Shown: in pieces, positions 466-20,504 of the stretch
Layout: every line of letters begins with the position of its first letter
Numbering within the stretch: the stretch's first letter is position 1
Source of the DNA: Euzebya rosea
GTDB taxonomy: Bacteria; Actinomycetota; Nitriliruptoria; Euzebyales; Euzebyaceae
DNA length: 64,000 nucleotides
Assembly (NCBI RefSeq): GCF_003073135.1
Contig: NZ_PGDQ01000009.1
Coordinates: forward strand, 62,001-126,000
Reading direction: 5' to 3'
Made by a program: the position numbers and the translations under genes
Notes under the pieces: model-generated
Databases searched by the model: none
What the model was told of the DNA's origin: nothing
Seen by the model: the letters and a program-made list of their open reading frames with translations, nothing else

Positions 466-540
466 GCCGCGCGGGGTGGCGTTCGTGCTCGGAGTGAAGT
501 AGAAGACACCTCCACCTTCTGAGCCGAAAGAGGGCCCTTG

Positions 541-3500
541 ATGAGCCGCCGCAGTCCCGTCCACCTCGTCGCGCCCCGATCGGTGGTGCTCGCGCTTCCC
601 GTCGTCCTTGCGCTGGCGTTGCTCGCCAGCCTGCTGGCGCCCACCGCCGACGCCCAGGACGACCCGCCCCTCGACGGGCGGTTCCAGGAGAACGGCGACG
701 CCGGTGGCTTCCTCAACATCATGCCGCCGGGCGCGGACGGGGTGCTCAACACCCTGGAGATCCTGGCCGCTCAGGCCGGCCAGCTGCCCGAGCACTACAA
801 CGACCAGACCGCGATGTACGAGACGCTGGTCTACGAGGGCGGCCTGCCGGTCGACGGTGACCACGGCGAGCCGCTGCTCGGCGTGACCGACGGGGACCTC
901 GAACGCTTCTTCAAGGACGGGTCGTTCGGCGCCGCCGGCGAGGTCGTCGAGATCGACGTCTCGGCCTGCGGTGACGACGTCATCGCCTTCCGCGACACCG
1001 CCTTCGGCGTCCCCCACATCCACTCCAGCGACCGCGCCCAGGCCCAGTGCGCCAACGGCTACGCCACCGCCGAGGACCGCTTGTTCCTCATGGACCTGCT
1101 GCGCCACATCGGCTACGCCCGGATGAGCGAGTTCCTGGGCGCCAGCGAGGCCAACAAGGCCATGGACCGCGGGCAGCTGCTGGTCGCCGGCTACGACGAG
1201 GACGACTACATCGCCCAGGAAGCGGCGCTGTGCGACTCCAGCGACCCCGAACGCGTGCAGATCTGCGCCGACGGCACGGCCTACATCGAGGGCGTCAACC
1301 ACTACGTGGCCGCCGTCCGGACCAACCCGGCGCTGCTGCCCGGTGAGTACCCCGCGCTGCAGATCCTCCCCGAGGACTTCGTCCTGCGCGACATCCTCGC
1401 CATCGCCTCCCTCGTCGGCGGCATCTTCGGCAAGGGCGGCGGCAACGAAGCCGCCAACTCCATGTTCATGGCCGACCTGGTCGACCAGCACGGAGCGGCC
1501 GAGGGTCGCGTGATCTTCGATGACCTCAAGGCGGCCAACGACCCCGACGCGTCGCTGACGATCCAGGACTCCTTCCCCTACAACAACCCCACGGCGCTGG
1601 ACGAGACCACCACCGCGCTGCTGGAGCCCGGCTCGTTCGTCCCCGCCTTCGAGGGCGGCATCGGCGGCGTCGGCGTGCCCGGCACCGTCCAGTCCCGGTC
1701 CGGCTGGCCGACCTCCGACAACGTCAACCTCGGCGTCGTCGACGGCCCGTTCGGCCCCATCGACCTGCGCACTCCGCTGGGCATGTCCAACGCGATCCTC
1801 GCGACCGCCGACGTGACCGACTCGGGTGTGCCGATCGCCGTCTTCGGCCCCCAGACGGGCTACTACACGCCGCAGCTGCTGGTCGAGACCGACATCCACG
1901 CACCGGGCCTCGACGCCCGCGGAACCGCGTTCGCCGGGACCAACATCTACGTCCAGCTCGGACGCGGCGGCGACTACGCCTGGTCGGCCACGTCCGCGTC
2001 CGGCGACCTCGTCGACGAGTGGGCGATCGAGCTGTGCGACCCCGACGGTGGCGAGGCCACGATCGAGTCCACCGGCTACGTCTGGGACGGCACCTGCGCG
2101 GAGATCCCCGTGCTGACCCACACCCAGGTCGCCAAGCCCACCGCCGGGGGCATCCCCGATCCGCCGGTCGTCGACAGCATCGTGTTCACCCTCGAGCTCG
2201 GACGCATCCCCGAGCTGAACGATGCGGCCATCGTCGGCCGCGCGCTGACCACCGACGGCACACCGGTCGCCATCGCCGAGCAGCGGTCCACGTTCAAGGA
2301 CGAGCTCGGGTCGGCGATCGGCTTCATGCGCATCAACGACCCCGACTTCATGACCGACGGCGTCGAGTCGTTCAACCGCGCCTTCGACGGGATCGACTTC
2401 ACCTTCAACTGGTTCTACATCGACGGCGAGGACATCGCCTACCGGCACACCTGCCTGTGCCCCATCCGTCCGGGCGACATCGACCCGGACCTGCTGACGT
2501 GGGGCGGCCGCGGTCACCAGTGGACCGGCGAGTTCCTCCAGCCATCGGGTCAGCCGCAGAGCGTCAACCCCGAGGAGGGGTTCTACGCCAACTGGAACAA
2601 CAAGCAGGCCCAGGACTTCCGCTCCCAGGACGACACGTGGAAGCACCACTCCACCGACCGTCGTGAGCACCTCGCCGTGCGGATGGAGGCCGCGATGGCC
2701 GCCGGTACGCCCCTGACCCGCGGCGACATGGTCAACATCGCCGAGGACGCCGGCACCGTGGACTTCAACCCGCAGGAGATCTACGCCCTGGCGCTGGAGA
2801 TCATGGGCACCGAGCCGCCGGCAGTCCTGGGAGGCGATGCCGCGCTCGCGTCCTCGATGCGGGGGATCCTGCAGGACTGGGTCGACGTCGGTGGCCACCG
2901 CCGCGACCTCGACCGTGACGGCGTCTACGACCACGCCGTGGCCATCAGCATCGGCGACGCCTGGGTGCGTCCGATGATCGAGGCGGTCCTCGGCGACGAG
3001 GTGCCGCTGGAGACCTGGCCCGAGGGCGTGGAGGACCACCCCCGAGGCGGCATCGGTTCGGCCTACAACTCCGGTCGCATGCGCTTCCTGCAGAAGGACT
3101 TCTGGCAGGTGCTCGACATGCCGATGCGCCAGGAGCGCAGCCGTACCTACTGTGGCACCGGTACGCGGGCCGACTGCGCCGAGGTGCTGTGGCGATCCCT
3201 CGCCGACGCCATCGACGTGCTGTCCACCACCTACGAGGGTGAGGAGGAACCGCCCTGTGGTTTCCCCGACGCCTACCACTTCGGGTCGACCACACCGGCG
3301 GAGTGGGTCTATCCGGCCGACTGCGACAACATCGTCCAGGGTGCGGCAGGCGTCGTGGCGGCCCCGTCGATGCGCTGGGTCAACCGTCCGACGTTCCACC
3401 AGGTCGTTGAGTCGGGGACGATCACCGGCCGGATCGCCGGTGCGGACCGGCTGACCACCTCCGCGGCCGCCAGCCGCCACGCGTTCCCCGGCGGGGCCGA

Positions 3501-4314
3501 CACGATCGTCCTCGCTGCTGCAGGGGCCTTCGCCGACGCCGTGGCCGGGACCCCGCTGGCCGCAGCCAACGACGCCCCCCTGCTGCTGACCGACTCGGGC
3601 CAGCTGTCCGCCGCGACCGAACGCGAGATCGTGCGGCTCGGCGCCACGAGCGCCATCGTGCTGGGCGGCACCGCCGCCATCGGTGACGCCGTGGTCTCGC
3701 GGCTGGAGCTGATCGGGGTGTCGGCCAGCCGCGTCGCCGGGGACACCCGCTACGAAACGGCCCTCGCGATCGCCGAGGAGCTGGAGGTGACCGATCGGTT
3801 CGTCCTGGCCAACGCCGGATCGTTCGCCGACGCGCTGGCAGCCGGACCGTTCGCGGCAGCCGACGACCGCGCCATCCTGCTGACCGACGCGGGCAGCCTG
3901 CCCGAGGACGTGGCCGATGCGCTCGACGGCGCCGACGTGATCATCGCCGGTGGGACGACCGCGGTCTCCGCGGCGGTTGCGCAGCAGGTCAGCGACGGCG
4001 GCGCGACGGTGGCGCGGGCGGACGGGGCCACCCGGTACGCGACCGCGGCAGCCCTGACCGCACGGGCGGTCGAGGCCGGCGCGTCTGCTGCCACCGCCTA
4101 CGTGGTGACCGGCGAGGCGTTCCCCGACGCCCTGTCGGCCGGTGCCGTCGCGGCCCGCACCGGCGGCGTGCTGGTGCTGCTGCAGCCCGACTCGTTGGAC
4201 AACGCCCCGGCAGCCCGTGACCTGCTGGTCAGCGACGCCGACCGCATCTGGTTCGTCGGCGGGACCACCCCGCTGCCGTCGACGCTGCGCCAGGCGCTGG
4301 AACGCCTCACCTGA
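541..4314 (+). CDS. Secreted penicillin acylase family amidohydrolase with three C-terminal CWB2 repeats
   Basis: A 1257-residue exported protein. Residues 1-37 form a signal peptide (Arg-rich start, long Leu/Val/Ala core, ADAQ cleavage region). The central part is an Ntn-hydrolase of the penicillin/AHL acylase family: an N-terminal alpha-chain-like segment (VIAFRDTAFGVPHIH, ATAEDRLFLMD) and MSNAIL, where Ser416 aligns with the autocatalytically exposed N-terminal nucleophile of the beta chain. From about residue 958 there are three cell-wall-binding repeat 2 modules (RIAGADRLTTSAAAS, RVAGDTRYETALAIA, ADGATRYATAAAL), so the enzyme is probably held on the cell surface. Substrate unknown: beta-lactams, acyl-homoserine lactones and other N-acyl compounds are all possible. 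ATG at 541 is preferred over the adjacent TTG at 538; an AAGAGG sequence lies upstream. Confidence 0.9.
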   Translation: MSRRSPVHLVAPRSVVLALPVVLALALLASLLAPTADAQDDPPLDGRFQENGDAGGFLNIMPPGADGVLNTLEILAAQAGQLPEHYNDQTAMYETLVYEGGLPVDGDHGEPLLGVTDGDLERFFKDGSFGAAGEVVEIDVSACGDDVIAFRDTAFGVPHIHSSDRAQAQCANGYATAEDRLFLMDLLRHIGYARMSEFLGASEANKAMDRGQLLVAGYDEDDYIAQEAALCDSSDPERVQICADGTAYIEGVNHYVAAVRTNPALLPGEYPALQILPEDFVLRDILAIASLVGGIFGKGGGNEAANSMFMADLVDQHGAAEGRVIFDDLKAANDPDASLTIQDSFPYNNPTALDETTTALLEPGSFVPAFEGGIGGVGVPGTVQSRSGWPTSDNVNLGVVDGPFGPIDLRTPLGMSNAILATADVTDSGVPIAVFGPQTGYYTPQLLVETDIHAPGLDARGTAFAGTNIYVQLGRGGDYAWSATSASGDLVDEWAIELCDPDGGEATIESTGYVWDGTCAEIPVLTHTQVAKPTAGGIPDPPVVDSIVFTLELGRIPELNDAAIVGRALTTDGTPVAIAEQRSTFKDELGSAIGFMRINDPDFMTDGVESFNRAFDGIDFTFNWFYIDGEDIAYRHTCLCPIRPGDIDPDLLTWGGRGHQWTGEFLQPSGQPQSVNPEEGFYANWNNKQAQDFRSQDDTWKHHSTDRREHLAVRMEAAMAAGTPLTRGDMVNIAEDAGTVDFNPQEIYALALEIMGTEPPAVLGGDAALASSMRGILQDWVDVGGHRRDLDRDGVYDHAVAISIGDAWVRPMIEAVLGDEVPLETWPEGVEDHPRGGIGSAYNSGRMRFLQKDFWQVLDMPMRQERSRTYCGTGTRADCAEVLWRSLADAIDVLSTTYEGEEEPPCGFPDAYHFGSTTPAEWVYPADCDNIVQGAAGVVAAPSMRWVNRPTFHQVVESGTITGRIAGADRLTTSAAASRHAFPGGADTIVLAAAGAFADAVAGTPLAAANDAPLLLTDSGQLSAATEREIVRLGATSAIVLGGTAAIGDAVVSRLELIGVSASRVAGDTRYETALAIAEELEVTDRFVLANAGSFADALAAGPFAAADDRAILLTDAGSLPEDVADALDGADVIIAGGTTAVSAAVAQQVSDGGATVARADGATRYATAAALTARAVEAGASAATAYVVTGEAFPDALSAGAVAARTGGVLVLLQPDSLDNAPAARDLLVSDADRIWFVGGTTPLPSTLRQALERLT

Positions 4315-7489: not shown

Positions 7490-9883
7490 TCAGTCCTCCT
7501 GGGGATGCACGGTCAGCGTCGGGTGCAGCTCCATGACCGTCGGCATCTCCGGCTGGAGCACGGTGGGGACGCCCTGGTGGCAGATCTCCATCGGTTCGTC
7601 GCCGCGCAGCGTGTAGACGGTCTCGTGACGCGACACCTCGACGCGCAGCAGCTGGCCGCGGACGGTCAGGTTGAACGCCAGCCCGTCCCACGAGGAGGGC
7701 AGCCGGGGCCAGAAGTCCGGCTGGTCGCCGGTGTCGGTCAGGCCACCGAAGCCGTGCACGATGCTCAGCCACACCCCGCCGGCCGCCGCGATGTGCACGC
7801 CGTCGCCGGTGTTGCCGGCCACGTTGGCCAGGTCCATGAACACGCCGTAGCGGAAGTACTCGATGGCCTTGGCATCGTTGCCGATCCGGGCCGCAACGAT
7901 CGACTGGATGGCCGTCGACAGCGACGAGTCACCCGTCGTCAGCGGATCGTAGTAGTCGAAGTTGCGGGCCTGGTGCTCGGGGTCGAACCAGTCGTCGTGC
8001 AGGAACATCGCAAGGACGACGTCGGCCTGCTTGATCACCTGGTAGCGGTAGATCACCAGCGGGTGGAAGTGCAGCAGCAGCGGGTACTTCTCGCGGGGCA
8101 CGCCCTCGAAGTCCCAGCGCTGCAGGTCCAGGAAGTGGGCGTCCTGCGGGGTGATGCCGAGGTCCTCGTCGTAGGGCACGTACATCGCCTCGGCCGCCCG
8201 CCGCCAGTGGAGGACCTCCTCGTCGCGCAGGTCGGTCCGGCGCAGCAGCCGTGCGTGGTCCTCGGGGCGGTCGGTGCGCAGCCACTCCACGGTGCTCGCG
8301 GCATCCCGCAGGTTCGCCGCGGCCATCAGGTTGGTGTAGGCGTTGTCGTCGACGACCGTCGTGTACTCGTCGGGCCCGGTGACCCCGTGGATGTGGAAGG
8401 TCTCGCCGTCGTCGCCCTGCCGGAAGAAGCCCAGGTCGGCGTACAGGCGTGCCGTCTCCACCAGCATCTCGGCGCCGCACTCGGCCAGGAAGTCCTCGTC
8501 GCCGGTGACCTGGGTGTACTTCATCACCGCATGGCTGATGTCGGCGTTGATGTGGTACTGGGCCGTGCCCGCCTCGAAGAAGGCCGACGCCTCCTCACCG
8601 GTGATCGTGCGCCACGGGAACAGGGCGCCCTTCTGGTTGACCTGGCGGGCTCGCCGTCGAGCGGCGTCGAGCATCCCGTGGCGGAACCGCAGGGCGTTGC
8701 GGGCCAGCAGGGGGTTGGTGTAGATCAGGAACGGCAGGACGTAGATCTCGGCGTCCCAGAAGTAGTGGCCCTCGTAGGCGCTGCCGGTCAGCCCCTTCGC
8801 GGGGATGCCGCGACTGTCCGCCCTCGCGGTGGCCTGGCAGACCTGGAACAGGCTCCAGCGGATGGCCTGGCAGACCGTCGGGTTGCCCTGGACGTCGACG
8901 TCGGCGGTGTCCCAGAACCGCTCGAGGTACGCCTCCTGCTCGGCGGCGATCTCCTCCCAGCCGCGCCCGATCGCCCGGTCCAGGGTGCGGTCGCAGCGGT
9001 CGGCGAGGCGCTGGGGGTGCGTCGGCATGCCCTCGTGGTTGACCGCCGAGGTGTGGAAGGCCGCGAACTTGGTGATGCCCAACCGCTGGCCGGACGACAT
9101 GGCCGCGGTGACGACGAGCCGGCCGAGGCTGGCGTCGGCCGTGCACTGCTCGTCGACGACCGCGTCACCGTCGACCAGGTGGTCGATCCCGCAGGCCATC
9201 GTCATCCCCGACTGGGCGACGCGGTAGGACAGCACCGACCGGCGGCCATCGGCGCGGGCGCCCTCGCCGACGAGGACCTCGTGGTCGAACCCCTTGGCCT
9301 TGCGGGGGTCGCCGTCGTCGCTGCGGGCGTCCTCCTGCACGTTGCGGAGCTGGGAGGACACGACGACGTGGGCGTTGCCGTCCAGCACCTCGACCTCGTA
9401 CCTGGCGGCCACGAGGTGGCGCTGCACCAGCGAGGTCAGCGCGGCGGAGGTCACCCGGACACGCACGCCGGTGGGCAGCCGCCACTCGATGGTGCGGGTC
9501 AGCTGGCCGGTGCGGAAGTCCAGCCGGCGGACGTAGGTGCGGATGTCGCCGTGCCGCAGGTCCAGCGGTTCGTCGTCGACGTAGAGGTGGAACCGCCGTG
9601 GGTCGGGGGCAGCGATGATGGTCTGCCCGACCTCGGCGAACCCGAAGGCGTGCTCGGGGTGGTGGATCGGCCACTGCTCGTGCAGCCCGTTGATGAGGGC
9701 GCCACGTTCGACGTAGGGACGTCCCTCCTCCGGGACCGCCCGCATGCCGATGAACCCGTTGCCGATGGCGAAGATCGACTCGGTCTCGGCCAGGTACCGG
9801 GGGGTGAACTCCTGCTCGACCAGGGCCCAGGGGTCGGGCGGGTAGATCGACGTCGGCAGGCCGACGATGTCGCGCTGCAGCAC
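7490..9883 (-). CDS. Glycoside hydrolase family 65 protein (kojibiose/trehalose/maltose phosphorylase type)
   Basis: About 797 residues with the full GH65 architecture: N-terminal beta-sandwich (ESIFAIGNGFIGMRA), (alpha/alpha)6 barrel with KGLTGSAYEGHYFWDAEI, and the catalytic acid Glu506 in VTGPDEYTT, then a C-terminal beta domain. Family members phosphorolyse alpha-glucosides to beta-glucose-1-phosphate plus a sugar. The gene directly follows a beta-phosphoglucomutase gene (gap 4 bp), the enzyme needed to turn that product into glucose-6-phosphate, so phosphorylase rather than hydrolase activity is likely. GTG 9883 is chosen because the longer frame would overlap the upstream gene and its extra residues are not family-like. 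Confidence 0.9.
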   Translation of the reverse strand: MLQRDIVGLPTSIYPPDPWALVEQEFTPRYLAETESIFAIGNGFIGMRAVPEEGRPYVERGALINGLHEQWPIHHPEHAFGFAEVGQTIIAAPDPRRFHLYVDDEPLDLRHGDIRTYVRRLDFRTGQLTRTIEWRLPTGVRVRVTSAALTSLVQRHLVAARYEVEVLDGNAHVVVSSQLRNVQEDARSDDGDPRKAKGFDHEVLVGEGARADGRRSVLSYRVAQSGMTMACGIDHLVDGDAVVDEQCTADASLGRLVVTAAMSSGQRLGITKFAAFHTSAVNHEGMPTHPQRLADRCDRTLDRAIGRGWEEIAAEQEAYLERFWDTADVDVQGNPTVCQAIRWSLFQVCQATARADSRGIPAKGLTGSAYEGHYFWDAEIYVLPFLIYTNPLLARNALRFRHGMLDAARRRARQVNQKGALFPWRTITGEEASAFFEAGTAQYHINADISHAVMKYTQVTGDEDFLAECGAEMLVETARLYADLGFFRQGDDGETFHIHGVTGPDEYTTVVDDNAYTNLMAAANLRDAASTVEWLRTDRPEDHARLLRRTDLRDEEVLHWRRAAEAMYVPYDEDLGITPQDAHFLDLQRWDFEGVPREKYPLLLHFHPLVIYRYQVIKQADVVLAMFLHDDWFDPEHQARNFDYYDPLTTGDSSLSTAIQSIVAARIGNDAKAIEYFRYGVFMDLANVAGNTGDGVHIAAAGGVWLSIVHGFGGLTDTGDQPDFWPRLPSSWDGLAFNLTVRGQLLRVEVSRHETVYTLRGDEPMEICHQGVPTVLQPEMPTVMELHPTLTVHPQED

Positions 9884-9887
9884 CGGT

Positions 9888-10631
9888 CTAGGCCAGCAGC
9901 TCGTCGAGATCGGCGACGACCACGTCGGCGCCGTGGGCACGCAGTTCGTCGGCCTGATCCAGCCGATCGACCCCGATGACCAGCCCGAACCCGCCGCCCT
10001 TGCCGGCCTCGACGCCGGCGACGGCGTCCTCGACGACCACTGTCCGTTCGGGGTCGACCCCGAGCAGCGTGGCGGCCTCGAGGAAGGTGTCGGGGGCCGG
10101 CTTGCCGGCCAGCTCGCGCTCCCGCGCCACCTCGCCGTCGACGACCAGCTCGAACCGGTCGGCGATGCCGGCGGCGTCGAGGACGCGCCGGGCGTTGCGG
10201 CTGGAGGACACCACCGCGCACTTGATCCCGTCCGCGAGCAGCCGGTCGACCAGCTGGACCGACGACTCGTAGGGCTCCACCCCCGCGTCGATCAGGTCCT
10301 GGACCATGTCGTTCTTGCGGTTGCCGAGCCCGTAGGTGGTGTCGGCGTCGGCCGGGTCGTCGATGTTGCCCTGCGGCAGCACGATCCGGCGGGACTCCAG
10401 GAAGGCGCTGACGCCCTCGTACCGGGGCCGACCGTCGACGTAGCTGCGGTAGTCCGTGGCGATCTCGAACGCCTGGTAGGGCAGGTCGTGAGCCAGGGAG
10501 TAGCGACGCAGGAACTCGTCGAACATCGTCTTCCACGCCTTGGCATGGAGCGCAGCGGTGTCGGTGAGCACGCCGTCGAGGTCGAACAGGACCGCGTCGT
10601 AGCGCGCTGGGGTGATGCTGGCGTCGGACAC
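9888..10631 (-). CDS. Beta-phosphoglucomutase family HAD hydrolase
   Basis: 247 residues of the HAD superfamily: motif I DLDGVLTDTA with the nucleophile and acid/base Asp pair, motif II VVSSSRNA, motif III Lys in GKPAPDTFLEAA, and motif IV VVVEDAVAGVEAG. The cap region and FDLDGVLTDT are those of the beta-phosphoglucomutase subfamily, which isomerises beta-glucose-1-phosphate to glucose-6-phosphate. It lies between xylA and the GH65 phosphorylase gene in one presumed transcript, and fits as the second enzyme of phosphorolytic disaccharide use. Confidence 0.88.
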   Translation of the reverse strand: MSDASITPARYDAVLFDLDGVLTDTAALHAKAWKTMFDEFLRRYSLAHDLPYQAFEIATDYRSYVDGRPRYEGVSAFLESRRIVLPQGNIDDPADADTTYGLGNRKNDMVQDLIDAGVEPYESSVQLVDRLLADGIKCAVVSSSRNARRVLDAAGIADRFELVVDGEVARERELAGKPAPDTFLEAATLLGVDPERTVVVEDAVAGVEAGKGGGFGLVIGVDRLDQADELRAHGADVVVADLDELLA

Positions 10632-10646
10632 GGAGGAGGTCCTTCC

Positions 10647-10673
10647 GGGTTTGGTGCGGGAGGAGCCAAACCC
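10647..10673. other. Hairpin in the xylA to beta-phosphoglucomutase spacer
   Basis: Perfect 8-bp inverted repeat (GGGTTTGG at 10647-10654, CCAAACCC at 10666-10673) with an 11-nt loop. It lies between two genes of the same strand. With no T-run after it, it is more likely a transcript processing or attenuation point than a full terminator. Confidence 0.45.
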
Positions 10674-10698
10674 TACCGTCCGACGCCAGCGCGGGGTA

Positions 10699-12024
10699 TC
10701 AGGAGGTGGTCCAGATCGCCCGGTTCACGACGTTCTCCAGGGCCTCCTGCCGACCGGACGTGGGGGCGGCGTCGATGTTGTCGGCCGCGACCTTCTCCGC
10801 GAGCGATGCCAGCGTGGCACCGGACATGATCTCGCGGCCGAGCTCCCCGTCCCAGCCGGCGTAGCGCTCCTCGACCGCAGCGGCCAGCTGTCCGGAGTCC
10901 ATCAGGGCCTCGGCGACCAGCAGCGAGCGGGCGAGGGTGTCGATGCCGCCGATGTGGCCGTGGAACAGGTCGTCGCGGGCGACGGACTGGCGACGCAGCT
11001 TGGTGTCGAAGTTGAAGCCGCCGGTGGTGAAGCCGCCACCCTTGAGGATCTCGTACATGGCCAGCGACAGCTCGTCGACGGAGTTGGGGAACTGGTCGGT
11101 GTCCCAGCCGTTCTGGTCGTCACCACGGTTGGCGTCGATGGAGCCGAAGACGCCGTTGGCGACGGCGTATGCCACCTCGTGGTGGAAGCTGTGGCCGGCG
11201 AGGGTGGCGTGGTTGACCTCGATGTTGACCTTGAACTCGCCCTCGAGGTCGTAGCGCGCCAGGAAACCGGCGACGGACTGGCTGTCGTAGTCGTACTGGT
11301 GCTTGGTGGGCTCCTGCGGCTTGGGCTCGATCAGCAGCGTCCCCTCGAACCCGATGGACTTCTTGTAGTCCACGACCATGTGCAGGAAGCGGGCCATCTG
11401 CTCGGCCTCACGCCCCAGGTCGGTGTTCAGCAGCGTCTCGTACCCCTCGCGGCCGCCCCACAGCACGTAGTTCTGGCCACCGAGGCGCACGGTGGCGTCC
11501 ATGGCGTGCTTGACCTGGGCGGCGGCGTGCGCGACGACGCGGGGGTCGGGGTTGGTCGCCGCGCCGGCGGCGAAGCGCGGGTGGCTGAAGGCGTTGGCGG
11601 TGCCCCACAGCAGCTGCACGCCGGTGTCGGCCATCTTCTTCTCGGCGTACTCCACCATCGACTCGAGGTTGGCGACGCTCTCGGCGAAGGTGTCGCCCTC
11701 CGGGGCGATGTCGCGGTCGTGGAAGCACCAGAACGGCATCCCGAGCTTGCCCATGAACTCGAAGGCGGCGTCCATCTTGGTCCGGGCGGCATCCATGGAG
11801 GTGGGGTCGGCCAGCCACGGGCGGTCGAAGGTGCCGCCGCCGAACACGTCGCTGCCGGGCCAGTTGAAGGAGTGCCAGTAGCAGACGGCGACCCGCAGGT
11901 GCTCGGCCATCGTCCGTCCCGCGACGACGCGATCGGCGTCGTAGACCTTGAACGCGAGGGGGTTGTCGCTGTCGAGCCCCTCGAAGGGGATGCGGGACGG
12001 AACGGTGGAGAAGAACTCTTGCAT
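10699..12024 (-). CDS. xylA: Xylose isomerase, class II (E. coli type)
   Basis: 441 residues, the size of class II enzymes (about 440) rather than the roughly 390 usual in Actinomycetota. It matches the E. coli pattern closely: NPLAFKVYD near the start, [12 protein letters not shown], catalytic His102 in [85 protein letters not shown]. It converts D-xylose to D-xylulose using two divalent metal ions. AGGAG lies 6 nt before the ATG. It follows the ROK regulator gene by 81 bp, and xylB lies 5 kb away on the other strand. Confidence 0.96.
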
Positions 12025-12036
12025 GGCTGGCTCCTG

Positions 12037-12083
12037 GCGGTCGGATGATGGTCGGTCTGGCGGTCGGTCTGGCGGTCGGTCTG
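12037..12083. repeat. 12-bp tandem repeats between the ROK regulator gene and xylA
   Basis: The unit GCGGTCGGTCTG occurs as two exact copies (12060-12071, 12072-12083), one near-copy (12048-12059) and one diverged copy at the left. It fills most of the 81-bp spacer upstream of xylA. It might be a protein-binding array or replication slippage; no clear promoter is seen in it. Confidence 0.6.
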
Positions 12084-12105
12084 GGGGGTGGCTGGTCGTG
12101 TCGGG

Positions 12106-13371
12106 TCAGGCGGACGCGGCGTCGTCGAGGAGCAGGTCCTCGGGGTGGGTCAGGACGTGCCACAGCACCTGCTCGCTGGCGCCGATGAGCGTGGCGTCCT
12201 TGCCGAGGTCCGGCTCGACGATGTCGCATTCCGCGAGCGGGCCGAGCAGTGCCTGGCGTGCCATCTCCTCCTCCACGGTCGTCCGCAGGTGCGGCAGGAG
12301 GCGGCCGAGGCGGCCGCCGAAGACGATCCGCGTCGGGTTGAGGACGTTGAGGAGGTTGCCGAGTCCGGTGGCGACCCAGCGGCCGGCGTCGTCCAGCGCA
12401 GCCAGGACCTCGGCGTCGCCGGCCGCCGCACCGGCGGCCAGCGCCTCGATGGGGTCGGTGTCATCGGGGAGGTCGGTCAGGCCGCTGGCGCGCAGGATGG
12501 CGGGCAGGCCGATGACGGTCTCCCAGCAGCCCCGCCCACCGCAGCCGCAGACGGCCCCGCCGGGCTGCACCTTCATGTGGCCGACCTCGGCCGCCAGTCC
12601 GTTGGCGCCCCAGAGCAGCCGGCCGTTGACCACGGCCCCGCCACCGACACCGGCGTTGCCGCTGATCAGCAGGCCGTTGTCGACGCCGCGGAGGCTGCCG
12701 CGCAGGTACTCCCCGATCGTGGCGAGCGTGGACTCGTTGCCCACGGTCACGGTCAGGCCCGAGGGAAGGGCGGTGCGCAGGACCGACCGCAGGTCGGTGT
12801 GGCCCCAGCCGAGGTTCGGCGCGTGCAGCAGGAGCCCGTCGTTGTTGACCAGGCCGGCGACGGCCACGCCGACCCCGACGGGGTTGGCGTCGGTCGGAAG
12901 GCGGTCCAGCTGGTCGTCGACCAGGACGCGGACGGCCTCGACCACGTCCGGCACGGCGGCGCGTTCGGGCATGGGCTGGCGGACGAGGTCGAAGAGGACC
13001 CCGCCGAGCCCGACGCTTGCGACGGCGACCTCACCGGGCCCGATCTCGACGGCGAGGGCGACGGCACGGTGGGCGTTGAGGCGCACGACGAGGGACGGTC
13101 GGCCGGGCGAGGGCTGGCGGTCCACGCCGGCGTCCTCGGCGATGCCACGATCGACGAGCTCGCCGATGAGGCTGCCGATGCCGGATCGGCTGAGGTTGAG
13201 GCCGGCGACGAGCTCGGACCGCGACTGGGCCCCCCGCAGGTGCAGGAGGGCCATCGTGGAGATCAGGTTCGCGCGTCGCGGGATGGTGGCGCCCGTGACG
13301 GCGGCCTCACGTTCCGTGGCGTGTGCGGGCGGGGTCAGCAGCGTGCGGTAGGCCTGCACCTCGATCGCCAT
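12106..13371 (-). CDS. ROK family transcriptional regulator, probable xylose repressor
   Basis: 421 residues. An N-terminal winged helix-turn-helix (about residues 25-80, LHLRGAQSRSELVAGLNLSR) is followed by a ROK sugar-kinase-like domain with the zinc motif CGCGGRGCWE and the GVGVAVAGLV and AEVGHMKV signatures. In XylR/NagC-like ROK repressors the sugar binds the kinase-like fold and lifts repression. Position at the head of a xylA operon supports control of xylose genes. ATG 13371 has AGGAGG 6 nt upstream. An operator-like sequence in its own promoter region is repeated before xylB, suggesting autoregulation. Confidence 0.9.
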   Translation of the reverse strand: MAIEVQAYRTLLTPPAHATEREAAVTGATIPRRANLISTMALLHLRGAQSRSELVAGLNLSRSGIGSLIGELVDRGIAEDAGVDRQPSPGRPSLVVRLNAHRAVALAVEIGPGEVAVASVGLGGVLFDLVRQPMPERAAVPDVVEAVRVLVDDQLDRLPTDANPVGVGVAVAGLVNNDGLLLHAPNLGWGHTDLRSVLRTALPSGLTVTVGNESTLATIGEYLRGSLRGVDNGLLISGNAGVGGGAVVNGRLLWGANGLAAEVGHMKVQPGGAVCGCGGRGCWETVIGLPAILRASGLTDLPDDTDPIEALAAGAAAGDAEVLAALDDAGRWVATGLGNLLNVLNPTRIVFGGRLGRLLPHLRTTVEEEMARQALLGPLAECDIVEPDLGKDATLIGASEQVLWHVLTHPEDLLLDDAASA

Positions 13372-13435
13372 GCCCCACCTCCTCGTGCTCGGGCTGGTCG
13401 CCCCGAGGAACACCTCTCGCGGCGGGCTGGCACCC

Positions 13436-13464
13436 AATATAGGCGCACTGTGAACAAAAGTGCA
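13436..13464 (-). promoter_or_regulatory. Probable promoter and operator of the ROK-xylA operon
   Basis: On the minus strand TATATT (13436-13441) is a good -10 box, with a weak -35 (TGCACT, 13459-13464) 17 bp away. Between and over them lies GCACTGTGAACAAAAGTGC (13445-13463, written on the plus strand), which has GCAC/GTGC ends and matches 15 of 19 positions with a site before xylB. A repressor bound here would cover the -35 and spacer. Confidence 0.6.
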
Positions 13465-13540
13465 CCCCCTTCTTCGGCACCATCTGATCTGCGGCCCCGC
13501 GCCGGGACCGGCGTGGCCGGACCCTGTCCATGGGCTCGCC

Positions 13541-14332
13541 TCACGATGCCCCCGGCAGTCCGGCGACCGCCTCCTCCAGCGTCCACACCTCCAGGACGGC
13601 CATGCGCCCATGGACGTCGTCCCCGACCGGGCACTCCGCGGGGACGATCAGCAGGTCCGGGTCGAGCGGCATCCCCATGGGGACGTCCGGTGCGTCGGCT
13701 GCTCCCAGCGTTGCCTCGACGCCGGGCGGACAGCTGACGGACCCGTCGGCTTCGACCGTCCCGATCGCCAGCACCGTGCGGCCGGCGGTCAGGTCGGCGC
13801 TGTTGGCCATGTCCACGATCGCCAGCAGCACCCCGAGCTGGGTCGGGGCGACGCCGTCGGGGGCGATGTGGGCGACGAGGCCGAGCGCGTCGGGATCACC
13901 CCGCCCCGGCGCCACCCCGCGGCCCACGAGCAACGCCGATGCGACCGGATCGAGGCCGCGGACACGGTCGACGGGCGCGCGGGCGACCCGCTGGTCGGGC
14001 CTGAGGACGGCCACGGCGGTCGCCAGCAGCGTCGGCCGTGGATCAACGAGGGGAACCACGATGCGTCCGTGCAGGCCAGCCGCATCCCCGTCGGTGCGGA
14101 CGTCGACGGCGGCGTCGACGTCGACCAGCCGTCCGGGCGTGGTCACCGACCACGGGGCCGGCGCGACTCCTGCGGTGGCGAGGACCACCAGCGACGCCGC
14201 GACGAGGACCGAGCGCGGCACGCGCCGGCCCTGCCGGTGGGGCATGCCCTCGAGGTCCGGCAGGGCCAGGTCGGCCCCGCCCCAACGCCACCACCGGATG
14301 GTGTGGCGGCGGGCGGGGTCTGTGTCGGTCAC
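13541..14332 (-). CDS. Membrane-anchored Lon-like (PDZ-Lon/S16 fold) protein without catalytic residues
   Basis: 263 residues. A basic N-terminus, one membrane helix (about residues 42-60, SVLVAASLVVLATAGVAPA) and an extracytoplasmic part whose C-terminal half aligns with the S16 domain of YlbL-like proteases: LLAIVDMANSADLTAGR, AIGTVEADGSV and LIVPAEC are in the expected order. Where active enzymes have GPSAG with the catalytic Ser, this has APTQLG (Thr164), and the Lys of the dyad region is replaced in GVEATLGAA. It is therefore likely a non-proteolytic relative. GTG 14332 is chosen for a GGAG at 10-nt spacing; a TTG at 14341 is the alternative. Confidence 0.6.
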   Translation of the reverse strand: MTDTDPARRHTIRWWRWGGADLALPDLEGMPHRQGRRVPRSVLVAASLVVLATAGVAPAPWSVTTPGRLVDVDAAVDVRTDGDAAGLHGRIVVPLVDPRPTLLATAVAVLRPDQRVARAPVDRVRGLDPVASALLVGRGVAPGRGDPDALGLVAHIAPDGVAPTQLGVLLAIVDMANSADLTAGRTVLAIGTVEADGSVSCPPGVEATLGAADAPDVPMGMPLDPDLLIVPAECPVGDDVHGRMAVLEVWTLEEAVAGLPGAS

Positions 14333-14366
14333 CGAGGGCAAGCTCCTCGGCCGCCCCCGGGGGTGA

Positions 14367-15242
14367 TCACCCGTCGGAGGTGGTCACCCATTCCAGCGCG
14401 GCCACGAAATGGGTCTGCCACCGGGCATCGTCGAAGGTCCCGTCGTAGTGGCCGAGGTTGGTGTACCAGACGCGGTTGGCACCGCGGAACGACTTGGTCC
14501 ACTCCAGCGGCTGGTCGTCGTCGTAGGCCGGGCTGATCGCACCCAGCCGCCCGAAGCCGGTGTAGGTCGAGGTCTCGTCCAGGCTGAGCAGCACGTGCAC
14601 GTCCTGGGTCCCACGGGGGTTCTGCCGCCACCGGTAGTACTCCTCGCGCATCTGGAAGGTCTCGGCCCCTTCCCATGCGGCGGTGATCGGGTGGGTCGTG
14701 TCCTCGACCTGGACGGTCGCCCGGTCCAGCAGCAAGCCACCCATCTGGTTGCCGTTGTGGGGATGGGACTCGAAGGCCGCGCCCACGAGCTCCTGGTACT
14801 CGGGCCACTGGTAGTTGGTGTCGGCCGCGGCGTGGATGCCCATGAAGCCCCCGCCGTCGAGCAGCCAGTCCACGAACATCGTCTTCTGCGCCTCGGAGAA
14901 GGGGTGTTCCCCGGTGGTGTTGGCGAACAGGATCGCGTCGGTTCGCTCCAGCAGGTCAGCGGTCAGGTCCGCGGTGTCCTCGGAGAACTCCACGGTGAAC
15001 GCGCCGGTCGACGCGGCCAGGTCGCTGATGACCTGCTGGGAGTGCTCGATGGACCCGTGGCGGAACCCGTCGGTGCGCGAGAACACCCACAGGTGCGGGG
15101 TTTCGGAGTCGGCGGCGACCGGGCCCGCCGCGCTGCTGAGGACGGCCAGGCACACGGCCAGGGCGAGCAGCAGCCAGCGGCTGCCGCTGCCCGTCCGGGT
15201 GCCACTGCCCGTCCGGGTCTCGACGGACTGTCGGGGCGTCAT
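14367..15242 (-). CDS. Exported ThuA domain protein
   Basis: 291 residues with a signal peptide (RWLLLALAVCLAVLSSAAGPVAA) and a class I glutamine-amidotransferase-like ThuA fold: LWVFSRTDGFRHGSIEHS, FANTTGEHPF, GGGFMGIHAAADT, AFESHPHN, VWYTNLGHYDG. ThuA is linked to trehalose uptake and use in rhizobia, but secreted ThuA proteins commonly sit beside PQQ-type sugar dehydrogenases, as here; the exact reaction is not established. Its ATG overlaps the TGA of the upstream dehydrogenase gene (ATGA), so the two are translated together. Confidence 0.85.
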   Translation of the reverse strand: MTPRQSVETRTGSGTRTGSGSRWLLLALAVCLAVLSSAAGPVAADSETPHLWVFSRTDGFRHGSIEHSQQVISDLAASTGAFTVEFSEDTADLTADLLERTDAILFANTTGEHPFSEAQKTMFVDWLLDGGGFMGIHAAADTNYQWPEYQELVGAAFESHPHNGNQMGGLLLDRATVQVEDTTHPITAAWEGAETFQMREEYYRWRQNPRGTQDVHVLLSLDETSTYTGFGRLGAISPAYDDDQPLEWTKSFRGANRVWYTNLGHYDGTFDDARWQTHFVAALEWVTTSDG

Positions 15243-16921
15243 CGCTGGACCTGCCGGCGACGAAGGCCGAGGGCGATCCCGGCCACGACGACCAGGGCGC
15301 TGGAGGCGGCCAGCGGCGTCCGGTCGGCGGCGGCCGGAACCGGGGCGTCGGCGGTCGAACCGACGACGTACTGCGTGGGCGCCGACAGCGCCTCGGGCTG
15401 GCAGCCGCTGCAGGCGATCCGGCTGATCCGGGAGTTGCCGTTGTTCCAGAAGCCGGTGCCGTACTCCACGAGGTACACCGCGCCGTCCGGGCCGATGGCG
15501 GCGTCGTGGGGATGGCGTGGGGACAGGGCGGACTCGTGCTGGACCGAGGTGACGAAGGTGTCCAGCGAACCGTCCTCCTCCACGGGGATGGAGAAGATCA
15601 TGTTGCGGCTCCACTCGAACCACAGCAGCTTCTGCTGCAACCGGTCCGGCAGGGCCAGCGCGCCATCACCGGCGTAGTCGTAGACGACACCGGTCATGGA
15701 CGTCCTGCCGCCCGCCCGCAGCTGCGGCCACTCCAGGGACAGGGTGGGGGAGTAGTACAGCGCCGGCGGGGTGTAGCCGGAGCAGTCGAACGGCTCGCCG
15801 CTCGTGCCGGTCGCGAAGTCGTAGTCGATGTAGGGCTGGTTGTCGGCGATGCAGTAGGGCCACCCGTGGTTGGTGCCGCCACCCGGGGGGACCACGTCCA
15901 GCTCGTCGTGGCCGGCAGGGCCGCGCTGGGCGTTGGCGCTGCTGGCGTCGGGTCCGACGTTGCCGACGTAGACCGTGCCGGTCTGCTGGTGCACGGCGAT
16001 CCGGTAGTCCGACCGGAAGCCCATCGCCCAGACCGCCGGGTCGGCGTCGGGGTCGCCGACGAACGGGTTGGCGACGACACCGGGGACCGACCCGTCGGGG
16101 ATCGATCCGTCGAGGTTGATCCGCAGGACCTTGCCGCGACGGTCGGCCTTGTTCGCCGAGGTCCGCTGGGCGTCGAACGCCTCGCGGTGGGTGGCGCGGT
16201 CGAGGACGTCACCGGGGTTGCGTCGTTCGTCGATGGGCGCGTAGCCGCTGGACTCGAACGGGTTGGTGTCGTCGGCGTTGGAGATGACGAGGGTGCCGTC
16301 GGGCATCAGGTCGAGGTCGCCGCCGTAGTGGCAGCACTCCAGCCACTCCACGGCGTTCTCGAAGACGACCTCCTCGGAGTCGAGGTCCAGGACGTTGTCG
16401 TCCCCGAGCACGAACGACGACAGACGGTTGATGCCCTCCAGCGCCTGGGTGCCGCCGGCATCGGGATGCTTGGGCGGGGTGGGGGCGGTGCCCTGGGATC
16501 CGGGGACGGAGTAGTACAGGTAGATGCGGTTGTCCTCGGCGAAGTCCGGGGACAGCAGCAGGCCGTGCAGGCCACCCTCGTTGAGGTCGTCGGGACAGTC
16601 GGTGCACTCGTTGGCGGCCGTGGGCAGGCGACCGGCCGTGACGACGTCACCCGAGGGCAGGATGACCTTGACGGCACCCTTGCGTTCGACGAACACCACG
16701 CGACCGTCGGCTGCGACGTCGATCGCGGTCGGGTCCTGGGTGTCCTCGGTGAGCACCTGCAGCTCGATGTCGTCGGCGCCGATGAACGGCGGGACGACGA
16801 ACTGGGCGGAGGCGGTCCCGCTGCCGGTCAGCAGCAACCCCAGCAGGACCAGGAGGGTGGTGGCCAGCAGGGGAACGGCACGCGTCCGTGTCCTGGATGG
16901 TCGGCGGAGGGTGGTGGTCAT
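15239..16921 (-). CDS. Exported PQQ-dependent sugar dehydrogenase (GSDH family) with C-terminal membrane tail
   Basis: 560 residues: signal peptide (about 1-39), then a six-bladed beta-propeller of the glucose/sorbosone dehydrogenase family (DPTAIDVAADGRVVFVERKG, GGLHGLLLSPDF, GKVLRINLDGSIP, MGFRSDYRIAVHQQTGTVYV, TNHGWPYCI). Such enzymes oxidise aldoses outside the membrane using PQQ, although the cofactor is not universal in this family. The end carries a hydrophobic helix followed by LRRRQVQR, a retention or sorting-like tail. Paired with ThuA; located inside the xylose locus, which hints at extracellular aldose oxidation. Confidence 0.88.
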   Translation of the reverse strand: MTTTLRRPSRTRTRAVPLLATTLLVLLGLLLTGSGTASAQFVVPPFIGADDIELQVLTEDTQDPTAIDVAADGRVVFVERKGAVKVILPSGDVVTAGRLPTAANECTDCPDDLNEGGLHGLLLSPDFAEDNRIYLYYSVPGSQGTAPTPPKHPDAGGTQALEGINRLSSFVLGDDNVLDLDSEEVVFENAVEWLECCHYGGDLDLMPDGTLVISNADDTNPFESSGYAPIDERRNPGDVLDRATHREAFDAQRTSANKADRRGKVLRINLDGSIPDGSVPGVVANPFVGDPDADPAVWAMGFRSDYRIAVHQQTGTVYVGNVGPDASSANAQRGPAGHDELDVVPPGGGTNHGWPYCIADNQPYIDYDFATGTSGEPFDCSGYTPPALYYSPTLSLEWPQLRAGGRTSMTGVVYDYAGDGALALPDRLQQKLLWFEWSRNMIFSIPVEEDGSLDTFVTSVQHESALSPRHPHDAAIGPDGAVYLVEYGTGFWNNGNSRISRIACSGCQPEALSAPTQYVVGSTADAPVPAAADRTPLAASSALVVVAGIALGLRRRQVQR

Positions 16922-17029
16922 GTCGGCTCCTCGCGTTGGTCATCGCCCAGCGTGGATGGTCTCCACACGTGCGTGGACGAGGGTTTCGACGTCGAACCGA
17001 CAAATCCTCCTTCGGGTCCCAGAATTCTT

Positions 17030-17048
17030 GCACGATGAACACAAATGC
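17030..17048 (+). promoter_or_regulatory. Operator-like site upstream of xylB
   Basis: GCACGATGAACACAAATGC shares 15 of 19 bases, including GCAC, TGAACA and the TGC end, with the site at 13445-13463 before the ROK regulator gene. It ends 25 bp before the xylB ATG and overlaps the region expected for the -35 box. Likely bound by the ROK regulator. Confidence 0.55.
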
Positions 17049-17059
17049 GGGCTCTCGGC

Positions 17060-17065
17060 TAGGAT
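17060..17065 (+). promoter_or_regulatory. xylB -10 box, leaderless-type spacing
   Basis: TAGGAT lies 8 nt before the ATG of xylB. A start site about 7 nt downstream of the box would fall at or next to the ATG, so the transcript is probably leaderless. The operator-like site lies just upstream. Confidence 0.45.
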
Positions 17066-17073
17066 GCGCAGAC

Positions 17074-18495
17074 ATGGCACTTGTTGTGGGAGTGGACTGC
17101 TCGACCCAGGCGACCAAGGCGCTCGTCATCGACACCGAGACCGGCAGGACGGTGGCGTCGGGCCGCGCCACGCACACCGTGACCGGGACCGACGGAGCCC
17201 GGGAAACCCACCCCACGGTCTGGTGGGACGCCCTGGCGCAGGCGCTGGAGCAGACCGGCCGGGCCGGTGACGTCGCAGCGATCGCCGTCGGTGGGCAGCA
17301 GCACGGCCTGGTCGTCAGCGACGCCGACGACGCCCCGCTGCGTCCGTCGATGTTGTGGAACGACACCCGCTCCGCCCCGCAGGCCGAGGCGCTGACCGCC
17401 GCCCTCGGCGGTCCCGAAGCGTGGGCTGCCGGGCCGGGGTCGGTGCCGGTCGCCGCGTACACGGTGACCAAGTGGGCGTGGCTGCGGGCAAACGAACCGG
17501 ACGTGGCCGCTGCCGCCGCGTCGGTGCGGCTGCCCCACGACTGGTTGACCACCCGGATGTCGGGCGAGGCCGTGACCGACCGGGGCGATGCCTCGGGGAG
17601 CGGCTGGTACTCCACGGCGACCGAGGCCTACGACCCGGCCGTGCTGGGCCTGCCCGCCGTCGACCTCGACCCCTCGTTGCTGCCCCGCGTGGCCGGCCCA
17701 ACCGAGGTCGTCGGCACCATCACGTCCGCCGCCGCCTCGGCGCTGGGCCTGCCCGTCGGTGCCGTCGTGGGTGCCGGGACCGGCGACAACATGGCCGCGG
17801 CGATGGGGCTGGGCGTCGAACCGGGCGTCCCCGTGCTCAGCCTGGGCACCTCCGGCACCGTGTACGCCGTCAGCGACCGTCGTCCGGGTGATCCCTCGGG
17901 CACCGTGTCCGGGTTCGCCGACGCGACCGGCCGGTTCCTCCCCCTGGCCTGCACCCTCAACTGCACCCTGGCCGTCGACCGTGTCGCGACGTGGCTCGGG
18001 ATCGACCGCAACGCCGTGGCCGACCGCACCGCCGTGACGATGTTGCCCTACCTCGACGGCGAGCGGACCCCCAACCTTCCCCAGGCCAGCGGGGCGATGC
18101 TCGGCCTGCGCCACGACACCGAACCGGGGGAGATCCTCCTCGCCGCCTACCAGGGTGCGGCCGCCTCGCTGGTGGACGCGATGGACGCCATCGCCGAGCA
18201 GTCCGGCGGACTGGACCCCGATGCCCCGCTGGTGCTGATCGGGGGCGGTGCACAGGGCACGGCCTGGCGGCGGGTCATCGGCGAGCTGACCGGACGTCGG
18301 CTGCTGGTCCCGGCCGCCGACGAGCTCGTCGCGCTCGGCGCAGCGGTCCAGGCCACAGCGGCGCTGGAGCAGGCCGACCCCCTCGCGATCGCGGCCCGCT
18401 GGAAGACGCAGTCGGGGGAGGAGCTGGCACCGATCGCCCACGACCCCGCACCCATGGCCCGGATCCGGGCGGTCGCCGAGTCCCTGTTCGGGTAG
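17074..18495 (+). CDS. xylB: Xylulokinase
   Basis: 473 residues, FGGY carbohydrate kinase family. The N-terminal VVGVDCSTQATKALVID phosphate loop, AIAVGGQQHGLV, MLWNDTR, the substrate loop DRGDASGSGWYS and the C-terminal ATP-site GGGAQGTAWRRV are all present, as is DGERTPN typical of xylulokinases. It phosphorylates D-xylulose to xylulose-5-phosphate, following xylose isomerase. It is separated from xylA by the ROK regulator and three minus-strand genes, but shares the operator-like site with the ROK promoter. Confidence 0.95.
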   Translation: MALVVGVDCSTQATKALVIDTETGRTVASGRATHTVTGTDGARETHPTVWWDALAQALEQTGRAGDVAAIAVGGQQHGLVVSDADDAPLRPSMLWNDTRSAPQAEALTAALGGPEAWAAGPGSVPVAAYTVTKWAWLRANEPDVAAAAASVRLPHDWLTTRMSGEAVTDRGDASGSGWYSTATEAYDPAVLGLPAVDLDPSLLPRVAGPTEVVGTITSAAASALGLPVGAVVGAGTGDNMAAAMGLGVEPGVPVLSLGTSGTVYAVSDRRPGDPSGTVSGFADATGRFLPLACTLNCTLAVDRVATWLGIDRNAVADRTAVTMLPYLDGERTPNLPQASGAMLGLRHDTEPGEILLAAYQGAAASLVDAMDAIAEQSGGLDPDAPLVLIGGGAQGTAWRRVIGELTGRRLLVPAADELVALGAAVQATAALEQADPLAIAARWKTQSGEELAPIAHDPAPMARIRAVAESLFG

Positions 18496-18644
18496 GCCGG
18501 TCGACGGCGCAACCGGCGTCGCGGCGTTCCCTTCGGAGATTCTCGGGGATGCCAGCAGGAGTTCGTTGCGTGAACGGCGAATTCAGGAGGAAAGGACCGG
18601 TCGTGGTGCATCGCGGCGGTCCGAGCCGACTGTGAGGTACTGCC

Positions 18645-20504
18645 GTGATCCCCAGGTTCAACCGCCGTGATCTGCTGAGGACGTCGACCGCCGGTGCTGG
18701 CGCGCTGGCCGGCACCGGGCTGCTGGCCCGTGCGGGTGTCCTGACGGGCGTCCTCGGGGTGTCCAGCGTCGCCGCCTCGGGCGTCGCCGGGGCGATCGAC
18801 GCCGCCGAGCTGCCGGCGCCGTTCACCACCCCGCTCCGCCAGCCGCCGGTCATCACCGACGCCGACGTGTCGCTGGTGGCCCGCGAGGCCCAGGTGCAGC
18901 TGCTGCCCGGCCGCACCACGACCATGTGGACCTTCGGCGGCACGTGGCCCGCCCCGACGATCCGGCGTCCCTCCGGCGAGCGGACGACCGTCACCGTCAC
19001 CAACGACCTGCCGACCGAGGTCGGCGACATCACCGTCCACCACCACGGCGGCCACCAGGCGGCCGAGCACGACGGCGGCCCCGTGCAGGACCCGGTGCTG
19101 CCCGGCGCGACCCGGACCTACGTCTACGAGCTGATGGAGGACGGCGAGGGCGAGCGGGCAGCCACGCAGTGGTACCACGACCACTCCCACTTCCGGACCG
19201 GTCGCAACAACTGGTTCGGCCTCCAGGGCATGTTCATCATCGACGACGACGTCGAGGCCGCGCTCGGCCTGCCCGACGGCGACCGGGACCTGGTGCTGAT
19301 GTGCACCAACCGCGACGTCGACGCGGACAACCAGCTGCTCGACCGCTTCACCGCCCCGGGTCGCGAGGACGCCACCGCGCTGGACGCCGCACCCGTCGGG
19401 GGGACCGGTCGGTACCCGCTGTCGGGTGACGAGCAGGCGTCCCTCGGGCCGCTGTTCCTCGTCAACGGGGTGCTGCAGCCCTACGCCGACGTGCAGGCGC
19501 GTCGGTACCGGCTGCGACTGATGAACGCCGCCAACTGGCAGGTCTACAACTTCTCCGTCACCGGCCCGAACGGGACCGTCCCCATGGTGCAGATCGCGGC
19601 CGAGGCCGGCCTGCTGCCGGCAGCGGTCGAGCGCGACGACATCCTGCTCGGCCCGGCCGAACGTGCTGAGGTCATCATCGACTTCACGGGCATGGAGGGG
19701 CAGCGGCTGGTCCTCGCATCGGGCCCCGGGTCGGCGTCCGCCCAGGGTGCCGTGCCCTTCTACAACGGCCCCACCCCGGCGGAGTTCGTGGAGTTCCGGG
19801 TCGGCCCGGTCGACCCCGAGGATCCCGACACGTCCGCGGTGATCGACCACGGCCAGGCGTTGCGGGCGCTGCCGAGCTGGGCCGACGGCCTGGCCACGGT
19901 GCCGGACCGCGTGTGGGTCTTCGGTGTGGGTGCCGACGAGGCCGGCCGTGCGGCGTGGACGATCAACGGCCGTGCGTTCGACCACGATCGCGTCGATGCC
20001 CGGCCCGAGCTCGGCTCCCGCGAGACGTGGTTGCTGGCCAACACCACCCAGCAGACCCACTTCATCCACATCCACGACGTGGACTGGGTGGTGCTGCAGC
20101 GCAACGGCGATCCCGCACCGGTGCACGAGCAGGGGCTGAAGGAGACGTTCCGGATCGACCCCGGCGAGGTCGTCCTGGTCGGCTCGACGTTCACCGACCA
20201 CCTCGGCCCGTACATGATGCACTGCCACATGCTGGAGCACGAGGACCACGGGATGATGAACACGTGGGAGGTCGTGGAACCCGGTCAGGGGGACCGCCCA
20301 GATGGGTCGTCGTCGGTTGAGGAGGCCCTGGCGGCCGATCTGGCCACCGCCGAGTCGCTGGCGATCGCCCGGGCGGTGATCGGCGCGGCCCGCAACGGGC
20401 GACCGGCGCCGATGTCACTGCTGAACCGGCTGAACGCCGGCCGCGGTGCCGTGACCGACATCCCCTCGCAGGCCGCCCTGTACTGCGACCTCAACGACCT
20501 GTAG
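18645..20504 (+). CDS. Tat-exported multicopper oxidase
   Basis: 619 residues with a twin-arginine signal (NRRDLLRTSTAGAGALAG). Three cupredoxin domains carry the copper ligands: VHHHGGHQ, WYHDHSHF, FIHIHDVDW and MMHCHMLEHEDHGMM, giving a type 1 site and a trinuclear centre. It resembles bilirubin-oxidase/CotA-like laccases, which oxidise phenols or metal ions and reduce O2 to water. The final 60 residues are a helical extension without ligands. GTG 18645 has GAGG at 7-nt spacing. The 150 bp before it contain a good GGAGGA but no convincing gene. Confidence 0.92.
   Translation: MIPRFNRRDLLRTSTAGAGALAGTGLLARAGVLTGVLGVSSVAASGVAGAIDAAELPAPFTTPLRQPPVITDADVSLVAREAQVQLLPGRTTTMWTFGGTWPAPTIRRPSGERTTVTVTNDLPTEVGDITVHHHGGHQAAEHDGGPVQDPVLPGATRTYVYELMEDGEGERAATQWYHDHSHFRTGRNNWFGLQGMFIIDDDVEAALGLPDGDRDLVLMCTNRDVDADNQLLDRFTAPGREDATALDAAPVGGTGRYPLSGDEQASLGPLFLVNGVLQPYADVQARRYRLRLMNAANWQVYNFSVTGPNGTVPMVQIAAEAGLLPAAVERDDILLGPAERAEVIIDFTGMEGQRLVLASGPGSASAQGAVPFYNGPTPAEFVEFRVGPVDPEDPDTSAVIDHGQALRALPSWADGLATVPDRVWVFGVGADEAGRAAWTINGRAFDHDRVDARPELGSRETWLLANTTQQTHFIHIHDVDWVVLQRNGDPAPVHEQGLKETFRIDPGEVVLVGSTFTDHLGPYMMHCHMLEHEDHGMMNTWEVVEPGQGDRPDGSSSVEEALAADLATAESLAIARAVIGAARNGRPAPMSLLNRLNAGRGAVTDIPSQAALYCDLNDL

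Follow-up and report, generated by a model that had tools for sequence, protein, structure and literature searches.

A candidate operator shared by the upstream regions of a ROK-family repressor gene and of xylB in Euzebya rosea

Two similar 19-base sequences lie in the stretch of 64,000 nucleotides of Euzebya rosea analysed here (the window), one upstream of a gene for a ROK-family regulator and the other upstream of xylB, and the question is whether both serve as operators for that regulator. A preliminary description placed them at 13445-13463 (site 1, GCACTGTGAACAAAAGTGC, just 5' of a TATATT hexamer) and at 17030-17048 (site 2, GCACGATGAACACAAATGC, between the divergent genes for a GSDH-type sugar dehydrogenase and for xylulokinase), neither being assigned to a strand, and counted them as alike at 15 of 19 positions; both the coordinates and the count were reproduced. 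We consider it probable that the regulator is a ROK repressor of the XylR type, which at site 1 would govern its own gene together with xylA and at site 2, between the GSDH-ThuA pair and xylB, would control xylB.

The gene content of the locus is informative in this respect. The products of xylA (xylose isomerase, 10699-12024, minus strand) and xylB (xylulokinase, 17074-18495, plus strand) score above the curated cut-offs set for TIGR02630 and TIGR01312, respectively, and each is the sole match to its family in the genome. The genome's only xylA and only xylB thus both sit behind the two sites, and since there is just one of each, joint control of the repressor-xylA unit and of xylB would follow naturally. 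The regulator gene, a candidate xylR, occupies 12106-13371 on the minus strand. On the same strand are a gene for a ThuA-like protein (14367-15242), whose start overlaps the end of the GSDH gene, and the GSDH gene itself (15239-16921, start at 16921), which diverges from xylB across site 2. Downstream of xylA, again on the minus strand, 7490-10631 holds genes for a beta-phosphoglucomutase-like HAD protein (9888-10631) and for a GH65 family glycosidase or phosphorylase (7490-9940); if a single presumed operon extends from xylA through both, it may join disaccharide phosphorolysis to xylose use. For a xylF-like transporter there were two matches in the genome below the family cut-off, neither of them at a copy of the core sequence described below.

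A comparison of 60 loci supports a role of the regulator in xylose use: by a count made by eye, 39 of them have a ROK relative together with a match to xylA and/or xylB, although loci from the same contig or genome do not count as independent and identity is as low as 28-33% for some of the xylA matches. Genes for GSDH and ThuA are likewise found repeatedly in the neighbourhood of ROK genes: in several loci of Nocardioides, at another locus of the present genome (L109) and in genome G034. More specifically, a xylose-type ROK gene with a GSDH-type dehydrogenase and a ThuA-like protein as neighbours was observed in the window (14367-16921) and in loci L109, L101 and L151-L170.

The protein itself has the features expected of a DNA-binding ROK repressor. 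It contains the ROK domain (PF00480, E = 1.9e-43) and a predicted N-terminal winged helix-turn-helix (helices 30-46, 51-58 and 62-74, strands 78-82 and 95-98), in which helix 62-74 is the recognition helix. The predicted structure has a mean pLDDT of 86. The protein aligns to the Mlc-like protein 1z05 and to Lmo0178 of Listeria from residue 35-40 onward. Lmo0178, a ROK repressor solved on its operator (5f7q), is the best fold match among solved structures (TM 0.78-0.80), although the identity is about 24%, the genes concerned are different and its sugar is presumably different too. A cysteine-rich metal motif is a feature of the ROK domain, and the regulator possesses it, since H265, C275, C277 and C282 are invariant in an alignment of 22 sequences. 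ROK kinases carry a DxGxT-like motif plus a catalytic Asp; the corresponding stretches of the present protein, located by eye, are VEIGPGE and NES, sequences more in keeping with a regulator than with a kinase.

The preliminary description also had both sites overlapping predicted promoter elements. Promoter-like hexamers can indeed be recognized by eye beside both sites, but a mechanical scan of positions 10000-19000 for sigma-70-type promoters returned none. Upstream of the ROK gene, TATATT (13436-13441, minus strand; 5/6 to consensus and conserved in G003, another genome of the genus) is the likely -10 element, no -35 element is recognizable (at most 3/6 match), and the spacer and the -35 region are taken up by site 1. 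For xylB the likely promoter, drawn by eye, is TGAACA-N18-TAGGAT (17036-17065, plus strand; 4/6 in each hexamer), within which TCGGCTAGGATGCGC is conserved in G003. The block at 17060-17076, comprising the xylB -10 element and the ATG, is likewise conserved in that genome. Because the likely -10 element ends 8 bases before the ATG at 17074, the xylB mRNA may be leaderless, starting at or next to this codon. The TGAACA element runs against the direction of the ROK gene and along that of xylB, which argues against a shared -35 hexamer and for an operator.

Read on the minus strand, the two sites have the same orientation and, further down at equal distance, share an AT..T element, on the grounds of which GSDH may be a target as well. 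It had been claimed that no other gene of the locus has the motif: no further match (up to 3 mismatches) occurs in the 64-kb window, but the divergent GSDH gene, too, has site 2 upstream of it, at a distance of about 109 bases. Next to site 2, at 17021-17029 (no strand assigned), the block AGAATTCTT is identical in G003; it may belong to the operator, as an AT-rich second part, or else serve GSDH as a -10 region on the minus strand. A first alternative is that the repressor does bind both sites but acts through them on two minus-strand units, the ROK operon and GSDH-ThuA, with xylB incidental or not controlled. The common orientation, the AT..T element lying where the ROK gene has its TATATT, and the recurrence of GSDH and ThuA beside ROK genes speak for it. 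We nonetheless regard it as improbable, because the conserved xylB -10 block stands right behind site 2, which covers a fitting -35 hexamer, because xylA and xylB belong to one pathway, and because inspection by eye yielded nothing convincing as a -10 or -35 element for GSDH.

Taken alone, the match between the sites is weak evidence. When the 169 bases upstream of the ROK gene and the 152 bases upstream of xylB were shuffled with dinucleotide composition preserved, the best shared 19-mer on either strand reached 15/19 in 99 of 2000 trials (0.0495), a marginal result with p about 0.05. What adds weight to it is that both sites are retained in G003, a second species. The locus of G003 is collinear with that of the window in gene order and orientation (GH65, HAD, xylA, ROK, an unnamed open reading frame, ThuA, GSDH, xylB, multicopper oxidase), and both the ROK protein and XylB are 94% identical to their counterparts. 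Of its 19 bases, site 1 shares 18 with G003, while 86 of 136 are shared in the aligned flank; for site 2 the figures are 17 of 19 and, in the flank, 101 of 133. Both sites rank with the best-conserved 19-column stretches of their regions: 17 or more identities are found in 21 of 162 such stretches of the site 1 region, all of them around the site, and in 21 of 134 of the site 2 region, where they fall at the GSDH start, at site 2 and at the xylB -10 element. Across all four sites of the two genomes 12 of the 19 columns are identical, a value reached in 9 of 600 column shuffles but in 42 of 600 when bases were permuted among the conserved columns only; given the conservation, the likeness of site 1 to site 2 thus appears only moderately significant.

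The genome scan proposed in the preliminary description was carried out on the whole assembly (5,508,786 bases in 40 contigs). With up to 3 mismatches the original pattern has 31 matches, of which 2 are perfect, 1 has two mismatches and 28 have three, and the reversed pattern, used as control, has 20 in all; the two perfect matches are perfect by construction, so that chance was tested separately. One near-miss (L003) falls inside a long open reading frame; another (L025), at an open reading frame that looks TetR-like by eye, was dropped. The core, TGAACAnAAnTG, is rare: the 5.5-Mb genome contains 2 copies only, both at the sites described here, and G003 contains 2 copies at the orthologous places, with no third copy in either genome (0.47 and 0.54 copies expected, respectively, under a first-order model of the window). 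In the four genomes of the genus CACnnTGAACAnAAnTG, with at most one mismatch, has 2, 2, 0 and 0 matches, the two positives being the present genome and G003; this 17-base form is absent from G001 and G002. An orthologue of the ROK protein is confined to the same two genomes; in G001 and G002 no ROK protein exceeds 37% and 30% identity, respectively. Across 66 genomes of the class, searched with the consensus of the four sites (CAYTTKTGTTCAYMGYG, up to 2 mismatches), these four sites are the only perfect matches; the others have one or two mismatches and are scattered, and the reversed control also matches in many genomes. One of them, with two mismatches, is located about 3.4 kb from a ROK gene in G017.

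The motif is likely to be a ROK operator, as its core is rare, is conserved at orthologous places in G003 and, in its 17-base form, is absent where the regulator is absent; the conservation in question is that of two genomes. In this sense its original designation as a candidate ROK operator is well supported by rarity, by conservation together with an orthologous regulator and by absence from the other two genomes of the genus, but that designation missed that site 2 also faces the divergent GSDH-ThuA pair, that no palindrome is common to the sites and that the operators of relatives differ.

A second alternative assigns the motif to another transcription factor or to a promoter-associated element, with the ROK protein binding elsewhere. 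A search for dyad symmetry common to both sites found none (the best joint centre is 42% complementary), with GCACT/AGTGC ends in site 1 by itself, and the lack of a shared palindrome speaks in favour of such a reading, together with the promoter-like hexamers beside both sites. Two core copies per genome, on the other hand, speak against a global regulator or a general promoter element, the site orientation is opposite relative to the ROK and xylB genes, the presence of the motif tracks the ROK orthologue within the genus, and the proteins encoded between sites 1 and 2 yielded no match to a DNA-binding family; all this leaves the alternative a small chance of being correct. As a main reading, a common promoter element was rejected on account of the opposite orientation of the core to the two genes and its occurrence twice per genome. 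Mere chance resemblance between two AT-rich promoter stretches of a GC-rich genome, which the 99 shuffled pairs out of 2000 would allow, is very unlikely in view of the preservation of the sites in a second species while their flanks changed and of the missing third core copy in either genome.

The favoured reading, a XylR-type repressor acting at both sites, can be compared with what has been described for other ROK proteins. According to one report (PMC4856308), ROK sites usually have a T-rich left half and an A-rich right half, and the sites bound by RokB of Streptomyces comprise TTTGTTC-11X-GAACAAA at novH as well as five in the genome that differ in make-up and are described as having no perfect inverted repeat. 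The GAACAAA half-site of novH is also present in site 1, its single copy in the window (0.38 expected); having been noticed after the motif was seen, it is supporting and not independent proof. Like the sites described here, the RokB genomic sites are without a perfect inverted repeat; unlike them, they share TVCVT and not TGAACA, and RokB of Streptomyces coelicolor is tied to amino acid genes and novobiocin, and not to xylose (PMC4856308).

The XylR proteins of Bacillus, Clostridium and Paenibacillus are closer in function, being ROK repressors linked to xylA and/or xylB with sites in xyl promoters. Their known sites are inverted repeats of about 25 bp (PMC2873477, PMC9104551), whereas here one half only is common to both sites. 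In Paenibacillus polymyxa the XylR site ACTTAGTTTAAGCAATAGACAAAGT is described as spanning the -35 regions of divergent promoters (PMC9104551), and site 1 read on the minus strand begins with the similar ACTTTTGTT. One clostridial group is described as having a very different XylR inverted repeat (PMC2873477), so that a change of operator within XylR has precedent. The best reading of the regulator is therefore as XylR-type and working like XylR, with the linkage to xyl genes present and the inverted repeat of about 25 bp lacking. A search of titles and abstracts, within the library and the terms used, found no literature on a xylose ROK operator in this genus.

Two other genomes of the class, G039 and G042, carry a perfect TTCGTTGT-N5-ACAACGAA in the interval that separates their divergently oriented ROK and xylB genes. 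Their regulators are XylR-like, of the same family as the one studied here and likewise encoded divergently from xylB, but the upstream regions of the window's ROK gene and xylB score only 9/16 for this motif, which is about the mean of shuffles made for other regions. Among 102 upstream regions of ROK, xylA and xylB relatives (107 rows, 5 of which were dropped as shorter than 150 bases), 10 reach at least 12/16; neither G003 nor the window does so. A second ROK paralogue of the present genome (L108, G000:C8) has, close to its start, a site resembling TTTTGTTGT-N5-TCACGAAA; a protein that matches xylF weakly is encoded about 5 kb from it.

The mode of action that we propose is as follows. In the absence of inducer the ROK protein would bind both sites. 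Occupancy of site 1 would cover the region just upstream of its own -10 element and presumably limit the repressor and the downstream xylA. With site 2 occupied, the repressor would lie over the -35 element and spacer of the xylB promoter and, probably, over the start region of GSDH-ThuA, the divergent pair. Release would come about when a sugar, in the likeliest case D-xylose, binds the kinase-like domain, upon which isomerase and kinase would rise together. Such control by a sugar is of an ordinary kind, but the binding sequence appears to be special to this genus.

A possible correlate of that special sequence is found in the recognition helix. Residue 64, at its start, is Thr in 52 of the 53 ungapped rows of a ROK alignment (55 rows, 2 being gapped at this position and left out); the lone Gly is that of G003, and the protein of the window also has Gly64. 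Thr64 is nearly invariant in the 22-sequence alignment, too. A connection between the altered helix and the altered operator is something we infer from two genomes, and many relatives with Thr64 are also without a class-type site. The fuller proposal, about which we remain doubtful, is that of a closed two-site circuit, which takes in GSDH and ThuA and in which the replacement of Thr64 by Gly and that of an inverted repeat by the largely one-sided CAyTTkTGTTCAymGyG took place together in the genus. A change of one residue in the reading head, paired with a changed operator, would be a testable case of a shift in the DNA specificity of a sugar repressor. With two sites per genome, the candidate regulon is small and fully defined, and it belongs to a deep lineage of actinobacteria; the GSDH-ThuA pair would, if the proposal is true, be placed in pentose use.

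Two other features of the window may be mentioned. The gap between the ROK gene and xylA (12025-12105) contains about three copies of GGTCGGTCTGGC, which were not seen in the same form in G003. At 538-4314 a penicillin-amidase-like protein is encoded in fusion with three CWB2 cell-wall-binding repeats.
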